Source: a virus | Reading direction: 5' to 3' (one strand) | Virus record (IMG/VR): IMGVR_UViG_3300027906_000009 | Coordinates: 1 to 64,000 of that record | DNA: 64,000 nt | The notes under the pieces: model-generated | Databases searched by the model: none | What the model saw: only the letters and a program-made list of their open reading frames with translations | Told to the model about the DNA's origin: nothing | Translations under genes and position numbers: made by a program | Shown: piece by piece, positions 26,152 through 34,723 of the stretch | Layout: every line of letters starts with the position of its first letter | Position numbering within the stretch: position 1 is the first letter of the stretch

Positions 26152-27738
26152 TTATCCTTTAAATAACCACGGGAAATCTTGATATGCTTTGTTTTGCTTA
26201 TTCACAGAATCCTGTATGGTTAATTTTCTATTTCCTATCATGCCTTTTATCCTAGTATCTAATTGGTTTGAATTTTTTGTTATAGATCCAATAAATGCTT
26301 TTGCGTAATCAATATCTCTTTGATTTGAAGTCAATGCTGTGTCGCGGACCCAACACCCTATTGCGGCCGCTATAATTAAATCATCGTTATAAGATCTCAT
26401 AGCTTCTGGTTTTCCATTGTTCCATATAAAAGTTCTCATTTCTGATAGCAAACGAGATGAATATACTTTAATTAGGTTATTTCTGATGAATTCTTCTAGT
26501 TTAGCTACAATTAAAGGACGAGTTTTCGAGGTCATAGAGAAGCCCACAACAGCGTTTGACATTTGATCAGCCTGGTATTCTTCCACAAATTCGTGAGTTG
26601 ACTTTACAGAGTGGTACAAATTAGGGTATTGCCTTTCTTTTAATTTGTCAAGTACGGCGAACCCTACAGAATTGTTTTCAACCACTAAAAGTGCTGATCC
26701 GTATTCCTGTCCCATATCATATAAAACCCTGGAAAATACATCAGGTGTACATTTCCCTTGATATTCGGCTACTATTTCCATAGTCTCCAGCTTAAATACA
26801 TGACAAACAGAATAATCTTTGCCGTCGCCCCTTGCTACATCTGCAGCCAGCAAGTAAGTATTTCCCTCTTGCTTGTTTTCCCATATCCATAGATTTCTAT
26901 CAAAACCAGTTCTATATTTGGGATCTTTTGTCATTTCACTATACTTCGATATGTCTTCAGGGGCAAAAACTGTTTCGCCCGACATATTGAAATTACACTC
27001 TAATTCTTGTGCTATTTCTCTCCTTGACATATTTCTGGTCTCTTTTTCAAACCACTGATCATCCCTGTCTGGGTGTGCCTGCCATGGTAATTTAGTGTAG
27101 TAAAAATCGTTTGTTTTATTCTCTGCCTCAACATATATCTTGTGAAACCAGTTTCCTACGCCATTTGGAGTCGATAGTGCTATGCAGCGGCCGCCAGTAG
27201 AGAGTGTAGGGTAAAGGCCCATCCACAACTCATCTAAACCTTCGACATGAGCAGCCTCATCGATAACCAACAAAGACAAAGCTTCCGATCGGCCAGCGTC
27301 ACCAGAGGTAGAAGATGCTTTGATCTGAGATCCATTAGATAATTGGAATGAAGTCCGGTTGTCGATATCAACGTTTGAAATTCTTAACCAAGGTGGCAGG
27401 TTTTTGATTATTGCTTTTACTTTTTTTACTAAATTTGCTGCAGTGTTAAATTTAGTAGCTATAACCAAAACGTTCTTTTCCCTGTGAAACATCATCATCC
27501 AAGCTACATAGGCTGCTGTGATAGTGGATATCCCTAACTGGCGCGCTTTTAATATAACGTTAAACCTATGATCTTCGAAGTCTTCTAATAATTTTTCTTG
27601 AAAGTCATATAAATGAAAAGGTATTAAGCCTTTTTGAGGGTGTGTTATTTTTGCGTATGTGTGAATGAAATAGTCGGGCTTTTTGCCACAACGGACAATC
27701 TCTTTCATTATTTCTCTTTTTGTGAGTTTTATTGCCAC
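26152..27738 (-). CDS. Terminase large subunit, gp17-like
   Basis: A 528-residue packaging motor and nuclease. ATPase: adenine-binding YDFQEKLL near residue 47, Walker A variant KARQLGIS (64-71), Walker B LLVIDEA (156-162) and coupling motif STPNG (189-193). Nuclease of RNase H-type fold: LAADVARGDGKDYS (Asp300), VVENNSVG (Glu354) and SYNDDLI (Asp452/453). T4 gp17 has 610 residues. It starts with GTG, six bases after AGGA; the frame extends upstream without a better start. A typical small subunit is not visible next to it; the upstream 165-residue protein sits in that place. Confidence 0.95.
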   Translation of the reverse strand: MAIKLTKREIMKEIVRCGKKPDYFIHTYAKITHPQKGLIPFHLYDFQEKLLEDFEDHRFNVILKARQLGISTITAAYVAWMMMFHREKNVLVIATKFNTAANLVKKVKAIIKNLPPWLRISNVDIDNRTSFQLSNGSQIKASSTSGDAGRSEALSLLVIDEAAHVEGLDELWMGLYPTLSTGGRCIALSTPNGVGNWFHKIYVEAENKTNDFYYTKLPWQAHPDRDDQWFEKETRNMSRREIAQELECNFNMSGETVFAPEDISKYSEMTKDPKYRTGFDRNLWIWENKQEGNTYLLAADVARGDGKDYSVCHVFKLETMEIVAEYQGKCTPDVFSRVLYDMGQEYGSALLVVENNSVGFAVLDKLKERQYPNLYHSVKSTHEFVEEYQADQMSNAVVGFSMTSKTRPLIVAKLEEFIRNNLIKVYSSRLLSEMRTFIWNNGKPEAMRSYNDDLIIAAAIGCWVRDTALTSNQRDIDYAKAFIGSITKNSNQLDTRIKGMIGNRKLTIQDSVNKQNKAYQDFPWLFKG

Positions 27739-28665: not shown

Positions 28666-29163
28666 TCACTTTGCCGCGAATATTATAGCTAAAGTGGTTA
28701 ATACACCTGCGGCTACGCCTCCGGCTGCCCACCAAAGCGAGTTATCGTTTGGTGTCTGCATTGTGACACCTGTGAGTTCACTGATTTGATTGTTTTTTAT
28801 TTGCAATATTTGTTCGTGTTCTTTGTTCAAGCTATCAATTTGAATCTGAAGCTGGTCGATCTCAAAAGTATAGCTTGCTCTAATTCTTGCTATATCGTGC
28901 TGGCATCTTAGCTGGCACTTTTCTTTCTCTCTTTCAGCGGAAGAAATCAGTAAAGAGTTAGCTGTACTGTTATAACACCATATGGGATCACCGTCAGGAC
29001 TAAGATTTAGTTTATTAATAATTTCTTCGTCAGTAACATATATCGCTGACGCCGGTGGAGAAAACTCTTTATCTAGTTCCAAATCAGCTAATGCGGAAAA
29101 TGGGTAACACAATATTAATATAATTGCAACTAGTCTAGTTTTTAAATTTAATTCCAAAGTCAT
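28666..29163 (-). CDS. Exported or membrane protein with signal peptide and C-terminal membrane segment
   Basis: About 165 residues. The N-terminus has basic residues and a hydrophobic core (TRLVAIILILCYPFSALA) with an A-L-A before Asp, fitting signal peptidase I cleavage. The mature part has three Cys residues, a coiled coil (about 85-130: RASYTFEIDQLQIQIDSLNK and on), and ends with a membrane segment (WWAAGGVAAGVLTTLAIIFA). Start at the ATG at 29163; a TTG two codons earlier is possible. It overlaps the preceding gene by 29 bases. With its two upstream neighbours it suggests an envelope or lysis function (spanin-like), which is an inference. Confidence 0.6.
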   Translation of the reverse strand: MTLELNLKTRLVAIILILCYPFSALADLELDKEFSPPASAIYVTDEEIINKLNLSPDGDPIWCYNSTANSLLISSAEREKEKCQLRCQHDIARIRASYTFEIDQLQIQIDSLNKEHEQILQIKNNQISELTGVTMQTPNDNSLWWAAGGVAAGVLTTLAIIFAAK

Positions 29164-29542
29164 TTTCAATCTTTCTTATAATCTCTTCAGGGTTACCTTT
29201 AGATTTTATCACAATTTTTCTGACATCTTCAATTTGTTTTTCAGAAAGTTGCTTGTTTTCCTCTTTGAATCTTTCCTCTAACCTTAGAATAGTCTCTTTA
29301 AATTGTTTTTGCAAATTCCTAAGGTTAATTATTTCTTCATTGTGAATTCGATTTATGGTTTCTATTTCTTCCCTGTGTGCTCTCTTATTAATTTCAATAG
29401 TCTTTCTTAAAGCTTCTGTATTTTTTTTTGAAAAAATATAAATGAATAAAGACCAGCATATCAATAGTGGTATTTTCCAATTATGTTTTAGCCACACCCA
29501 GGATTTTTCTAAACCCGTTTTAAAAATTAGCCACGTCATCAT
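29135..29542 (-). CDS. Membrane-anchored coiled-coil protein, spanin-like layout
   Basis: About 135 residues. An N-terminal membrane segment (NWKIPLLICWSLFIYIFS, about residues 18-36) precedes a long charged helix (residues 40-115, many E/K/R, heptad-like) and a short C-terminal domain. A single N-terminal anchor followed by a periplasmic coiled coil is the shape of inner-membrane spanins (Rz type), though many other anchored proteins share it. The start is taken at the ATG pair at 29542; an upstream TTG at 29578 would overlap the previous gene further. The gene overlaps both neighbours. Confidence 0.55.
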   Translation of the reverse strand: MMTWLIFKTGLEKSWVWLKHNWKIPLLICWSLFIYIFSKKNTEALRKTIEINKRAHREEIETINRIHNEEIINLRNLQKQFKETILRLEERFKEENKQLSEKQIEDVRKIVIKSKGNPEEIIRKIENDFGIKFKN

Positions 29543-29738
29543 TACTTGGTCCATGTTTCCATTTAACAGCCATGTCAACTAGTGCTTGAGTACCTATATA
29601 TGCTAGTGTTATAGCGGTCCAATTATCACTAGTGACTGTGCCATATGCGCAAAGGCCTGTTGCTGTTAGCCATGCTAAAAATTTTCTTGATATAAATTTT
29701 TCTGTATGTTTGTCTGCGAATGCTTTCAATTCTGCCAT
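29520..29738 (-). CDS. Small membrane protein, holin-like in size
   Basis: A 72-residue protein: charged helix (AELKAFADKHTEKFISRKF), one or two hydrophobic segments (LAWLTATGLCAYGTV, AITLAYIGTQALVDMA) and a hydrophilic end. Size and layout fit small phage holins or similar membrane proteins, but no motif proves this, and no endolysin is seen in the window. AGGGGG lies seven bases before the ATG at 29738; another ATG one codon earlier is closer to it. It follows the Mre11-Rad50-like gene by 11 bases and overlaps the coiled-coil gene. Confidence 0.55.
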   Translation of the reverse strand: MAELKAFADKHTEKFISRKFLAWLTATGLCAYGTVTSDNWTAITLAYIGTQALVDMAVKWKHGPSNDDVANF

Positions 29739-29749
29739 CATAAATCCCC

Positions 29750-32700
29750 CTATATGTTTACATGTGCATAACCATCTCTTTTCTCAATGTTTATTTGCAT
29801 ATCCACACAATCTTTTAGATTATCTAGATGTGAAATAAGAAGAAAAGTTTTAAAATAGCCTTTGACCATATCTAAGATACGTACAAAGCCTTCCATGTTC
29901 TCTTCATCAAGAGCAGTTCCCGGCTCGTCAAGTATAAATAGGTCAGACTTTGGTAAACTGGACACAGTTAAAAAAGCCAAACGTATGGCCATGCTTGCAA
30001 TAGTCTTCTCAGCGCCGGATCCCATCTCGAGCGGACGTGGGTCGTGGCTAGGATGCTTAATAAAAATATCTAACTTGTCTTCGTTGTTAGAAATGAACAC
30101 TTCAAACTCCACAATATTAGTCAATATCTTAGATATCTCCTGGTTAATGTAAGGCAGTCTTTCTTTAATAATTTCATATGAAACACCATTAGGATGACAA
30201 CAGACCATAAAAAGATGATAAGCTGCAAAGCTTTGTTCTAGTTCTCTAAACTCTTGCTGTTGGTCTTGTGTATGTGATAACTTTTGTTCGGAAGATCCAT
30301 GTTTTTTGTGTAGTTGCATAATCTTTTGTTCACACAAATTGATCTCCTGTTCTTTATTTTCAGATTGCTTTTCTAACTTTTCCTTGTCTGATATTAATTG
30401 CTTTAAATTCTCAATGGCTTCCTTGTTTTCTTCATATTCTGTGGCTTTATTTTTAAGATCATCGAGTGCAACCTGCTCTTTAAATAAAAGACTGTCAGCC
30501 CGTTCAATAATTAGATTACTAGTCGTTATTGAATTTGCGAGACAATCTCTTTTCTCAACCAAAGCACTATGTTTCTCTATATATTTATCTACTTTTGTCA
30601 TCTCATCGTGAGAGATTTCGGCGCCTATAATATTAATCTTCCGGGTTGTTATAGACATTTCTGATGCTTTTTGTTTAACCGCTTCTCCAATAAGCGGATG
30701 ACAACTGGCACATACTTTGTCCTGTTCTGTTACTAATAGTCTTTTTTGCTCAGACAAGTTCTTCAAAAGTAAAATCAAATTATTTAATTCGTCGCTAACT
30801 TTTGTAAAAGACTCTTTCTTTTTCTTATAATTTTCAATTTCAAAGTCCTTCAAAAAGTCTTCAATCTTTTCATACTTAAGCTTATTATCATCAATATTTT
30901 TTTGCGCATTCGTTTTCTTAGCGTTTATTTGCAAAATGGCTTTCTCCTTTTCCGTTATCTTCTTGGCAGTAATAACAGGATCAATAATTTCTGCTGGAAC
31001 TGAGGATATTTTATTTTGTAGGAGGCCGGCCTCTTGCATTAATTCTAGCATTTCTTCTTTTAGAGATATACAGATTGCTTTATTTTTCTCGATAGCAAGT
31101 TCACTTTTAATAATTTCTGTCTTAATATTTTTAATATTTGCATCAAAGTCAATACCCTCTAAACGCCTTAGAGCTACTTTTATTTCAGCAGATGCCTCTT
31201 TGGCCATCTTAAATTTCTTATCAAAAATTTCTAAATCCAAAAACTTTGCAAGAAACTCTTTCCTTTTAGTTGAGCCTTCGTTGATAAACGAAAGGGAATC
31301 TAATTGAGAAGCCATTGAGGTTGCTAGGAAGTCTGGTAGTGTGCCAAAATACTTTCTTACATTCTTATCAGTGTCTTGTCTGGAAGTACCGTTGAGGCCT
31401 GTATGGTTTCCAATAGCGTCTTGTGAATAAAACTCCAAGTCAGTTGTTGCCTCTTGAGTTTCAACTCCTTTTGAGCGTTTTGTATATTTGTTGGACTTGC
31501 GCTCAATAATATAATCTGTTCCATCTACTTTGATTGTTGCTGTTGCGACGCATTCATCTTTATTTTGATTGATAATATTTAGATTCTTACGAATAGATTT
31601 GGAAGTAGAGTTGTACATAGAATAAAGTAACGTATCAACAATAGAAGACTTGCCAGAGTAATTTTTACCAAATATACCAACAATACCTTCTAGTTTTGTA
31701 AAGTCGATGATATTACCTTCGCTATAGTTAAATAGATTGTCCCACTCCAAACTCTGAAGTGACCAATTAACATTTCGCATGACATCTTCATTTTCTTCTA
31801 TCTGCTTATTAAACTGTTTATTTAGTTCATATACTTTTTCCAAAACTTCTTGCGTTGCTTCATATTCTTTTAGATACTCAGCCATTAGAGACTCTTGAGT
31901 ATTCAAATCTCGCAGGTCTTGTTTTTCCAACCCTTCGGGGGCGGCAACCTTGATTTGTTTACCGGCTGCCCTATTGAGGTAAGTTACTGATTCTGGATTG
32001 TATTTATATTTCGCAATGTCTACAGCCTTGCGAACCTTATCTAAAGATACGTTATTCTCAGAAACTATTCTAAGTCTCGCTCCTTCCGGTGGTTTCTGTC
32101 TTGGCAGGTTGCCCTTTTCTGTCAGAGAAAGAGTAACGAAAGGTCTTGGGTTATTGAAGGTAATGAGTCTATTGGTAAAATCATCTTTACTTTCAATGTC
32201 CCAAAGTAAATAACCTTTGTCCAGTGACTCACCAAAATTTTGTTGTACTGTGGATCCAGCATACCAGATGCGACCTTCCTTATCTAGCTTCTGTGTTTTG
32301 TGGATATCTCCAAGAAAGGCAAAGTCAAACTCTTCAAAGATTTCGATACTGTGGTCGCCGCCTAGTGTCCAGTTACTGTCTGTTTTGGATTTATCAATAG
32401 CACCGTGATATAATGCTATGTTAACTAGGTTGTAGTCTGTTGGTTCAGTCCAGTTTTCCTCATCAAATACAGATAAAACATTTAGACAAAACTTATCATT
32501 GATTTTAGTCTCTCCGGCGTTTTTTAACAGGATGAGATTTGGGTCATTGATAGCCTTTGCGATTGGTGAAAGAGCGTCTTGTCTGGAGCCATTTCGAAGG
32601 TTACCGTCGTGATTGCCTAAAATCACATAGGTTGGCGCGATTGCCGCAAGGTTCTGGAAGAAATCTCTACACATATCTACAAACTCTGGTGAGATTTGTG

Positions 32701-32848
32701 TCTTAGTATGGGCAATATCTCCGCAATGGATAATGCAGTCCACTTTCTCTTCTTTTAGCGATTTGTAAAGTTGTTGAAATATTTCTTTGTATTCAAAATG
32801 ATATTTTAGGTTTCGGATATGGGTATCCGCGATATGAGCAAATCTCAT
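29750..32848 (-). CDS. Single-chain Mre11-Rad50-like recombination nuclease (gp47+gp46 fusion)
   Basis: A 1032-residue fusion. Residues 1-225 are a Mre11/SbcD/gp47 metallophosphoesterase: ADTH (7-10), HCGDIAH (41-47), GNHD (78-81), YHGA (His148), LGDIH (179-183). Residues about 380-1032 are a Rad50/SbcC/gp46 SMC-like ATPase: Walker A GKNYSGKSS (394-402), two long coiled-coil arms, a zinc hook CASC (713-716), signature MGSGAEKTIA near 950, Walker B LFILDEPGTALD (Asp974, Glu975) and LLISHL. In T4 the two are separate genes, acting together in recombination-dependent replication, break processing and host DNA degradation. All key residues are present. GGAG lies five bases before the ATG; a near-consensus sigma70 promoter precedes it. 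Confidence 0.93.
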   Translation of the reverse strand: MRFAHIADTHIRNLKYHFEYKEIFQQLYKSLKEEKVDCIIHCGDIAHTKTQISPEFVDMCRDFFQNLAAIAPTYVILGNHDGNLRNGSRQDALSPIAKAINDPNLILLKNAGETKINDKFCLNVLSVFDEENWTEPTDYNLVNIALYHGAIDKSKTDSNWTLGGDHSIEIFEEFDFAFLGDIHKTQKLDKEGRIWYAGSTVQQNFGESLDKGYLLWDIESKDDFTNRLITFNNPRPFVTLSLTEKGNLPRQKPPEGARLRIVSENNVSLDKVRKAVDIAKYKYNPESVTYLNRAAGKQIKVAAPEGLEKQDLRDLNTQESLMAEYLKEYEATQEVLEKVYELNKQFNKQIEENEDVMRNVNWSLQSLEWDNLFNYSEGNIIDFTKLEGIVGIFGKNYSGKSSIVDTLLYSMYNSTSKSIRKNLNIINQNKDECVATATIKVDGTDYIIERKSNKYTKRSKGVETQEATTDLEFYSQDAIGNHTGLNGTSRQDTDKNVRKYFGTLPDFLATSMASQLDSLSFINEGSTKRKEFLAKFLDLEIFDKKFKMAKEASAEIKVALRRLEGIDFDANIKNIKTEIIKSELAIEKNKAICISLKEEMLELMQEAGLLQNKISSVPAEIIDPVITAKKITEKEKAILQINAKKTNAQKNIDDNKLKYEKIEDFLKDFEIENYKKKKESFTKVSDELNNLILLLKNLSEQKRLLVTEQDKVCASCHPLIGEAVKQKASEMSITTRKINIIGAEISHDEMTKVDKYIEKHSALVEKRDCLANSITTSNLIIERADSLLFKEQVALDDLKNKATEYEENKEAIENLKQLISDKEKLEKQSENKEQEINLCEQKIMQLHKKHGSSEQKLSHTQDQQQEFRELEQSFAAYHLFMVCCHPNGVSYEIIKERLPYINQEISKILTNIVEFEVFISNNEDKLDIFIKHPSHDPRPLEMGSGAEKTIASMAIRLAFLTVSSLPKSDLFILDEPGTALDEENMEGFVRILDMVKGYFKTFLLISHLDNLKDCVDMQINIEKRDGYAHVNI

Positions 32849-33297: not shown

Positions 33298-34215
33298 CTA
33301 GAAGTCAAGTTTATAATGTAAATAGTCTAAATCGGACACAATATCCGCATTTTGTTTTCGCTGTTCTACCACTTTTTGTGGCATCTCTCCGATGTCTGAA
33401 TAACCGCTGACATCAATAGACATAACTTTAATACCATATTCTCTTAGTTTCTTTGCTATCCCAAACTCTTTTTCTTTAACATCTTCGTCCAAAGCCAGAT
33501 ATACATCTGGTTTTCTTTCGCATATCTTTTGGAACAGTCTTGAACCCTCTCTCAAGGTTGAGCCAAGTAAGGGTACAGCGTTCTTGCATTTCATTGCGTC
33601 AAATACACCCTCAGTTAAAACAACATTGTTGTCCCAATCAATATTTAAATCGTTAAAAATAATATCTTTGCTAATTTTTGGATTCTTATATTTCATCCAG
33701 TTTCCCGTATATGATCTTGCTACAAAAAAATTAACATTACCGTCTTTGTCGAAGCCCGGAACAATAACTCTGTCTTGATATTCGCCGTAGTTACAAAAGC
33801 CGATCTTCCATATCAATATATCTTTGTCTGAAAAGCCTCGAGAGTAAAGATAATTTAGGGCCCGTTTCTTAATCTTGGTCTTTCTACCAGTCAGAGTTTG
33901 AAAATTATCTGGTAGATCTACAATTTGAGATTGTTCTACTAAGCGCTCTTGGAAGATCTCTTCATATTTTGCAAGATTTACTTCACCCGCAAGGTTGCGC
34001 CAGTCGGCGTAATAGACTGGTGAATGCCTTCGAATGAGTGAAGATATCTTTGTACCGGAGTAGTCGCAAATCCAACACTTGAACACATTTTTTTCTATGT
34101 TGACCGATAATTTTAGTTTATGGTGATTACACTTTGGGCAACGAAATTGATGTTCATTGTCGTTAGTCCAGCAACGACCAAGGGCTCTCTTAAGTAATTT
34201 CAGCTTCTCTGACAA
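33298..34215 (-). CDS. DnaG-type DNA primase, gp61-like
   Basis: A 305-residue primase. An N-terminal zinc site CPKC (Cys26, Cys29) and CWIC (Cys47, Cys50) precedes a TOPRIM domain: RVIVPGFDKDGNVNFFVAR (149-167), VVLTEGVFDAMK (Glu202, Asp206) and YLALDEDVKE (Asp243, Asp245). It makes RNA primers for lagging-strand synthesis, in T4 with helicase gp41. It lacks a fused helicase. The start is TTG, six bases after AGGAG and 26 bases inside the RuvC-like gene. T4 gp61 has 342 residues. Nearby recombination genes support a replication island. Confidence 0.85.
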   Translation of the reverse strand: MSEKLKLLKRALGRCWTNDNEHQFRCPKCNHHKLKLSVNIEKNVFKCWICDYSGTKISSLIRRHSPVYYADWRNLAGEVNLAKYEEIFQERLVEQSQIVDLPDNFQTLTGRKTKIKKRALNYLYSRGFSDKDILIWKIGFCNYGEYQDRVIVPGFDKDGNVNFFVARSYTGNWMKYKNPKISKDIIFNDLNIDWDNNVVLTEGVFDAMKCKNAVPLLGSTLREGSRLFQKICERKPDVYLALDEDVKEKEFGIAKKLREYGIKVMSIDVSGYSDIGEMPQKVVEQRKQNADIVSDLDYLHYKLDF

Positions 34216-34723
34216 GCTTATCTCCTGCTAATGCGATTATAATACTATCACACATGTCTAGTGTACCAGGTTTTGGGTTTCCGTGTTTTGTATATTGTAC
34301 CGCAATATGTGAGTACTTGTCAAGAATAAATTCAAGAACCTTCTCTTTTGAATTTTCACCCCTTTTAATTTTAAGTCCAGCTAACTTACGGGCGGAGGAT
34401 GCGGCGAGCATTTGAGGGTGATTTCCGAAAATATCATAACAGAACCACGATATAATCCCATTAAACCTAGATAAAGTTGACAATGTTTGTGCTGATGAGA
34501 AGCCTGATCGGAACGTATGTAGAGATTGTTCTATGAACACTTTACTAATATTATGCTTCCTTTTTAAGAGCATTAATTTAATTCTTATATGGTGAGCTTT
34601 CTCATATAAAGATGGAAACTTATTTTTATTTCTAGTATCCCAATAAGTACTTTCCACAATCTTATTATTTTTAATTATTGTGGCTCCTGTAATGGAAGTT
34701 GATATATCTAATCCTAATATCAC
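34190..34723 (-). CDS. RuvC-like Holliday junction resolvase / nuclease
   Basis: A 177-residue protein with an RNase H-type nuclease fold of the RuvC group. The four acidic residues are visible: Asp6 in MILGLDISTS, Glu65 in KVFIEQS, and Asp156 and Asp159 in DMCDSIIIA. It would cut branched DNA before packaging or during recombination; T4 uses the unrelated gp49 for this. GTG start, with AAAGG eight bases before; the GTG shares its first base with the previous TAG. It is part of the J-domain, RuvC, primase chain of overlapping genes. Confidence 0.85.
   Translation of the reverse strand: MILGLDISTSITGATIIKNNKIVESTYWDTRNKNKFPSLYEKAHHIRIKLMLLKRKHNISKVFIEQSLHTFRSGFSSAQTLSTLSRFNGIISWFCYDIFGNHPQMLAASSARKLAGLKIKRGENSKEKVLEFILDKYSHIAVQYTKHGNPKPGTLDMCDSIIIALAGDKLVREAEIT

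Follow-up and report, generated by a model that had tools for sequence, protein, structure and literature searches.

Is the long open reading frame at 29750-32848 on the minus strand of this 64,000-nucleotide stretch of viral DNA (hereafter the window) a genuine gene in which an Mre11-like nuclease and a Rad50-like ATPase form one polypeptide, and if so, how unusual is it and what might its product do? The original prediction, made from the sequence alone, implied that the gene is an oddity, the two proteins being separate chains elsewhere. The frame is a genuine fusion; however, this implication and the reading of the gene as an oddity both fail. Mre11-Rad50 fusions are widespread in phages and were first described in 2011 by Yoshida, Claverie and Ogata, who reported Mimivirus R555 and twelve more from bacteria, plasmids, eukaryotes and the Bacillus phage 0305phi8-36 (PMC3175470).

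Domain anatomy and predicted structure

The nuclease and ATPase lie in one stop-free frame of 1032 codons in the window, as originally predicted, and this was borne out by the reading of open frames, by Pfam and by PHROGs (Table 1). Pfam placed Metallophos at residues 1-183 (2.9e-13), followed by SMC_N (2.2e-11) and AAA_23 at 367-581 (5.2e-8), with the SMC_N/AAA_23 matches beginning at about residue 364, whilst the PHROGs matches were to an SbcD-like family over residues 1-343 (2.8e-31) and an SbcC-like family over residues 285-1027 (4.7e-51). The SbcD-like profile spans 989 positions, which suggests that the members of this family already include fusions. In a sequence search of the PDB the C-terminal part matched Rad50, and the N-terminal part matched Mre11 more weakly. 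A PF13476 profile search of the record from which the window was taken gave no match, whereas hmmscan of the protein, phrog_77 and PF00149 did match.

All of the motifs named at the outset, those of the nuclease together with Walker A, zinc hook, signature and Walker B, are present. The nuclease half carries ADTH (7-10), GDIAH (43-47), GNHD (78-81), H148 and GDIH (180-183), and the ATPase half carries Walker A GKNYSGKSS (394-402), signature SGAEK (944-948), Walker B FILDEP (971-976) and H1007; with its Q-loop, His switch and coiled coil, the Rad50/SbcC feature set is complete. The nuclease comes before the ATPase, just as gene 47 precedes 46 in T4 and sbcD precedes sbcC in E. coli, again as predicted, and the 1:1 stoichiometry proposed for the fusion follows from the single chain; access of DNA ends to the nuclease may also be altered, as was proposed.

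Table 1. Features of the fusion gene and of the neighbouring genes discussed in the text (window positions).
Feature	Position	Strand	Evidence
Mre11-Rad50 (SbcD-SbcC) fusion gene, 1032 aa	29750..32848	-	ORF, Pfam, PHROGs
Mre11/SbcD nuclease and capping domain, residues 1-293	31970..32848	-	Pfam Metallophos; structural similarity to SbcD of S. aureus (7dog_B)
Mre11 helix-loop-helix (HLH), residues 315-352	31793..31906	-	helices 315-329 and 333-352 in predicted model
Short linker, residues 353-360, with start of R358-N359-x-x-W362 junction motif	31769..31792	-	model and alignment
Rad50 N-terminal ATPase lobe, residues 361-560 (Walker A at 31643-31678)	31169..31768	-	Pfam, model, structure match
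Antiparallel coiled coil (arm), residues 561-884	30197..31168	-	helices in predicted model
CxxC hook CASC at arm tip, residues 713-716	30701..30712	-	motif reading
Rad50 C-terminal ATPase lobe, residues 885-1032	29753..30196	-	PDB sequence search, structure match, motifs
Signature, C-terminal lobe	30005..30019	-	
Walker B, C-terminal lobe	29921..29938	-	
His switch, C-terminal lobe	29822..29836	-	
DnaG-type primase, just upstream of the fusion	33298..34215	-	phrog_47, 2.1e-38
RuvC-like resolvase	34190..34723	-	phrog_159, 1.2e-7
Terminase large subunit, marking the contig as a tailed phage	26152..27738	-	phrog_2, 2.1e-52

Structure prediction from the single sequence gave a pLDDT of only 35.5, and the model used here was built from an alignment of 88 members of the family (described below); its mean pLDDT is 82.6 with a pTM of 0.48, thus the placement of the domains relative to each other is unsure. 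In structure comparisons of this model, residues 1-293 matched S. aureus SbcD (7dog_B; Z 24.9, rmsd 3.2, 274 aligned), and residues 360-1032 matched SbcC/Rad50 heads (3av0_B, Z 30.3, rmsd 4.2, 355 aligned; 7yzo_D, Z 29.6, rmsd 3.7, 354 aligned). The closest predicted viral structures over the whole length are giant-virus DNA-repair proteins from Tupanvirus, Harvfovirus, Yasminevirus, Terrestrivirus and Catovirus.

In the model the HLH, whose role is taken from the Thermotoga maritima complex as recounted by PMC3175470, is followed by eight residues, after which Rad50 opens with a strand at 361. For T. maritima the same account puts the end of Mre11 about 28 A away from the point where Rad50 begins, and a linker of 9-12 residues is expected there. 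The modelled linker is slightly shorter than this, and the capping/HLH region and a short linker appear to have been retained in the fused chain.

A genuine fusion among related viruses

Viral contigs were scanned twice, the first scan giving the best 80 of 348 relatives and the second, which used an alignment as query, the best 80 of at least 585. Removal of 17 repeats, recognised by matching contig names by eye, reduced the 160 loci to 143 distinct contigs, and in 135 of these the fusion frame is unbroken over essentially the whole query, a proportion biased towards intact fusions as the ranking favours full-length matches. The query patterns of the first scan came from both halves, and it could thus have detected split copies as well. 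Seven of the other eight copies run off the end of the contig or stored stretch, and the eighth (L031) has an in-frame stop. This last copy, on a 159-kb contig, has a single TGA at codon 199, which may be real or an error, and is otherwise complete.

A frame of this kind could in principle be created by an assembly or indel artefact that joins two adjacent genes, and look-alikes do exist, such as the 1010-residue ‘fusion’ of Listeria phage LMTA-57. For the window gene this explanation is so improbable that it can be set aside: the unbroken frame is shared by independent relatives, namely the 135 distinct contigs, from many metagenomes, and the Microcystis phage Mel-JY01, whilst the junction bears an invariant RN motif and no clear remnant of a ribosome site was seen there by eye. 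The single-chain Mre11-Rad50 frame is thus a genuine fusion. In LMTA-57 itself (L003) one base, within a run of A, differs from the split gene pair of phage LP-064 (L086), and downstream of the run the second gene still has an intact ribosome site and an intact start codon; the product annotated as ‘recombination exonuclease’ in LMTA-57 is probably a spurious fusion arising from this one base.

The 88 members of the alignment were chosen from the fetched sequences for variety and completeness. Invariant among them are D8, D44, N79, H80, H148 and H183 of the nuclease and K400, Q515, S944, G945, E947, D974, E975 and H1007 of the ATPase, with H10 found in 87 members and G394 and S401 in 86. Also present in all 88 are H47, of the motif GDxxH, and D181, where GDxH stands for the usual metal-ligand motif GHxH. 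At the junction, R358 and N359 of the RNxxW motif are likewise invariant and W362 is found in 87; the motif recurs in Mel-JY01 and in a 735-kb phage and is absent from the other phages compared.

The junction is also where a second product might originate, since Met357 is located where a separate Rad50 would start, and an internal start there would yield additional free Rad50 from the same gene. We regard this as very unlikely: Met357 is found in just 16 of the 88 members, the position being mostly Ser, Ala, Tyr or Thr elsewhere, and by eye no strong ribosome site precedes it. The reading preferred is therefore of one gene with one fused product.

Such a product is routine in the related viral contigs kept and is found in other groups of cultured phages too, contrary to the oddity first implied. 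When the cultured phages were searched with a Rhizobium phage protein, 19 of the 28 matching records covered at least 80% of the query in one place, a count that includes Rhizobium phage RHph_TM39, in which the region is repeated, and YerA41, in which the tail of the ATPase is a separate gene; with the protein of the 735-kb phage the figure was 11 of 13. In Yersinia phage YerA41 (L196, 1105-4142) the annotation divides the fused gene in two at a point within the ATPase, and in its relative GN1 (L197) it is one frame. In RHph_TM39 (L087, 2539-6508) the first part of the fused gene occurs twice in succession around unresolved bases, probably as an assembly duplication.

Outside viral collections, one scan of genome contigs (17 loci) gave no convincing cellular copy of the family. 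Several of these loci are on short, viral-looking MAG contigs, L092 among them, which equals viral contig 2802429371_000007 in length, and one (L094), from a WOR-3 ‘chromosome’ that is probably chimeric, is incomplete and runs into Ns. Eight records of a plasmid collection matched, none of them covering 80% of the query, thus this collection did not yield the plasmid fusions described in 2011.

Apparent insertions were seen in or beside the fused genes of two relatives. In one (L180, 6959-7905) the intact gene is followed by a free-standing GIY-YIG endonuclease with a NUMOD3 motif and then by a second copy of about 170 bases of the 3' end of the fused gene, from Walker B onwards and about 80% identical; judged from its sequence, the insert looks like a homing element that brought its own 3' end. 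In the other, a 484-kb phage (L088, 4944-9166), a 305-residue frame with a TnsA-like endonuclease domain breaks into the fused gene after the GDIH motif, and a TnpB-like frame was seen by eye upstream, at 1286. Rfam gave no match on these two loci or on the window, hence no known intron at the L088 insertion.

Variation of the hook

The arm of the protein has diverged much faster than the heads, with protein identity decreasing along its length up to the hook. Hook spacing is C-x6-C in 60 of the 88 members, typically in the form PCGxxxxxCKFI, C-x2-C (CxxC) in 25, including the CASC of the window protein, and something other in the remaining 3. The replacement of CxxC by C-x6-C, with repeated switching between near-identical proteins, appears to be new; a limited literature search on hook variants found no published description of C-x6-C hooks.

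In an arm-free tree of the heads alone, made by a quick method whose branch support is less trustworthy, the four hook classes need 18 changes as opposed to a mean of 27.2 when shuffled, and none of 200 shuffles gave so low a number, from which it follows that hook type is clustered yet switches often. The hooks differ within the pair L061 and L067 despite 96.5% head identity, and likewise within the pair L012 and L014 (96.3%). Synonymous sites are near saturation in every region (48 pairs, from which L045 is absent after failing the translation check), such that the switches may reflect either recombination or fast change in place.

It may be that the hook is an exchangeable specificity cassette, flipping between CxxC and C-x6-C so that fused nucleases would pair only with their own kind and avoid tethering DNA together with the nucleases of co-infecting relatives, in which case C-x6-C would be a second functional metal hook. 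We offer this speculatively and think it rather doubtful. The natural hook variants provide a ready test of hook function.

Gene neighbourhood, proposed function and known systems

The window is part of a virus contig of 91,314 bases, on which genes for terminase, portal and major head protein were found. In the 89 contigs that extend 2500 bp or more upstream of the fusion, a homologue of the primase is found upstream in 88 and of the RuvC-like resolvase in 83; downstream, among 128 contigs with about 4000 bp available, a terminase homologue is found in 94 and the small gene at 29520-29741 in 125. The latter is the first in a set of three small genes that directly follow the fusion (28666-29741), none with a Pfam match, and encodes 73 residues, hydrophobic and by eye possibly holin-like.

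Twelve marine records (that of the window and 11 others) and Mel-JY01 all have strong SbcC-like and SbcD-like Metallophos matches in one long frame, and no second SbcC/SbcD pair was found in these 13 smaller records. In the 91-kb record of the window the fusion is the sole SbcC-like and SbcD-like gene, and is apparently the phage's only Mre11-Rad50. Extras elsewhere are one further Metallophos protein of 233 residues in G009, two weak additional SbcC-like matches in Mel-JY01, and, in the 735-kb phage record LR756501 (670999-672753, 278528-282133), an SbcC-like place in addition to the fused protein. A RecA-family gene was found in 11 of the 13 records; no RecA match was found in the 91-kb record, which may be a fragment, nor in G009.

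Taken together, the single frame, its domains and predicted fold, the conservation of motifs, the short linker and the gene content indicate that the product is very probably an Mre11-Rad50 nuclease that a tailed marine phage makes as a single chain of the R555 type, from which we infer its dimeric form, activity and pathway. By analogy it is most likely a self-contained M2R2-type nuclease for processing DNA ends that feeds a RecA-type recombinase, this role being drawn from family knowledge of Mre11-Rad50 and of T4 gp46/gp47. Two fused chains would associate via both the nuclease and the ATPase domains, forming the usual M2R2 machine as a homodimer, in which the HLH and short linker would hold each nuclease on its own ATPase, the hooks would join the arms and the Rad50 heads would close on DNA with ATP. 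ATP-gated opening and trimming of double-strand ends could then expose 3' single strands for the phage RecA-type recombinase, analogous to gp46/gp47 in the recombination-dependent replication of T4, and the enzyme may also help to destroy host DNA. Given GDxH in place of GHxH in all 88 members, the metal chemistry may differ.

The main task could conversely lie outside recombination, the enzyme serving as a palindrome or end nuclease that breaks down host or rival DNA or counteracts defence. T4 46/47 are annotated as needed for host-DNA degradation as well as for recombination, and in the window the gene adjoins packaging and structural genes; however, the neighbouring primase and RuvC genes, together with the presence of RecA in the majority of records, point to replication and recombination, and we consider a mainly degradative role unlikely. 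For the end-processing nuclease that we prefer, a self-contained, single-chain and short-armed version would be convenient for structural study of Mre11-Rad50.

The nearest published counterpart is Mimivirus R555, to which the window protein is likened by published description (PMC3175470). R555 has the same nuclease-first order, a retained HLH and a short linker, and is described with the same deviations, GDxxH and an Asp for His206 of P. furiosus, which correspond to H47 and D181 here; however, R555 is a protein of 1351 residues with a long coiled coil from an amoeba virus, whereas that of the window has 1032 residues and a shorter arm and comes from a tailed phage. The 2011 paper also describes R555-like reads as enriched in the viral fractions of aquatic metagenomes and, as phage primase genes lie on the same scaffolds, many R555-like genes as inferred to be phage-borne (PMC3175470). 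The full-length phage contigs confirm this short-read inference, as there described: the abundant marine R555-like genes are true fusions in tailed phages.

A second group of fused phage proteins is formed by those of Rhizobium Cuauhnahuacvirus, Escherichia IME392, Acinetobacter Ab1-TPeters, Vibrio Va2, Cobetia Carin-5, Yersinia GN1 and Thermus phiLo, which are single-chain nuclease-ATPases of 866-1082 residues like that of the window, but without RNxxW and separate in the tree. In that tree, of heads and nuclease, Mel-JY01 and the phages of Tenacibaculum and Sphingomonas fall with the window group, as does the 735-kb phage, and the fused rows split into two groups, one fused clade appearing in 1% of 200 bootstrap trees; an AU test did not reject one fused clade (p 0.313), and E. 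coli, D254 and phiLo have long branches.

Among the classical systems, T4 gp47/gp46 have the same two domains and order, a short arm and a CxxC hook, and they too are phage recombination proteins; unlike the fusion, they come from two genes with two small genes between them. The SbcD/SbcC of E. coli has the same domains, order and fold but is likewise two genes, and SbcC alone has 1048 residues, such that its arm is much longer than that of the window fusion. The T4 and E. coli nucleases have GDxxD and GHxH as opposed to GDxxH and GDxH in the window protein. The His at the H47 position is not specific to fusions, being found in LP-064 and ENFP1 too, and the Asp of D181 is also found in the split protein of D254.
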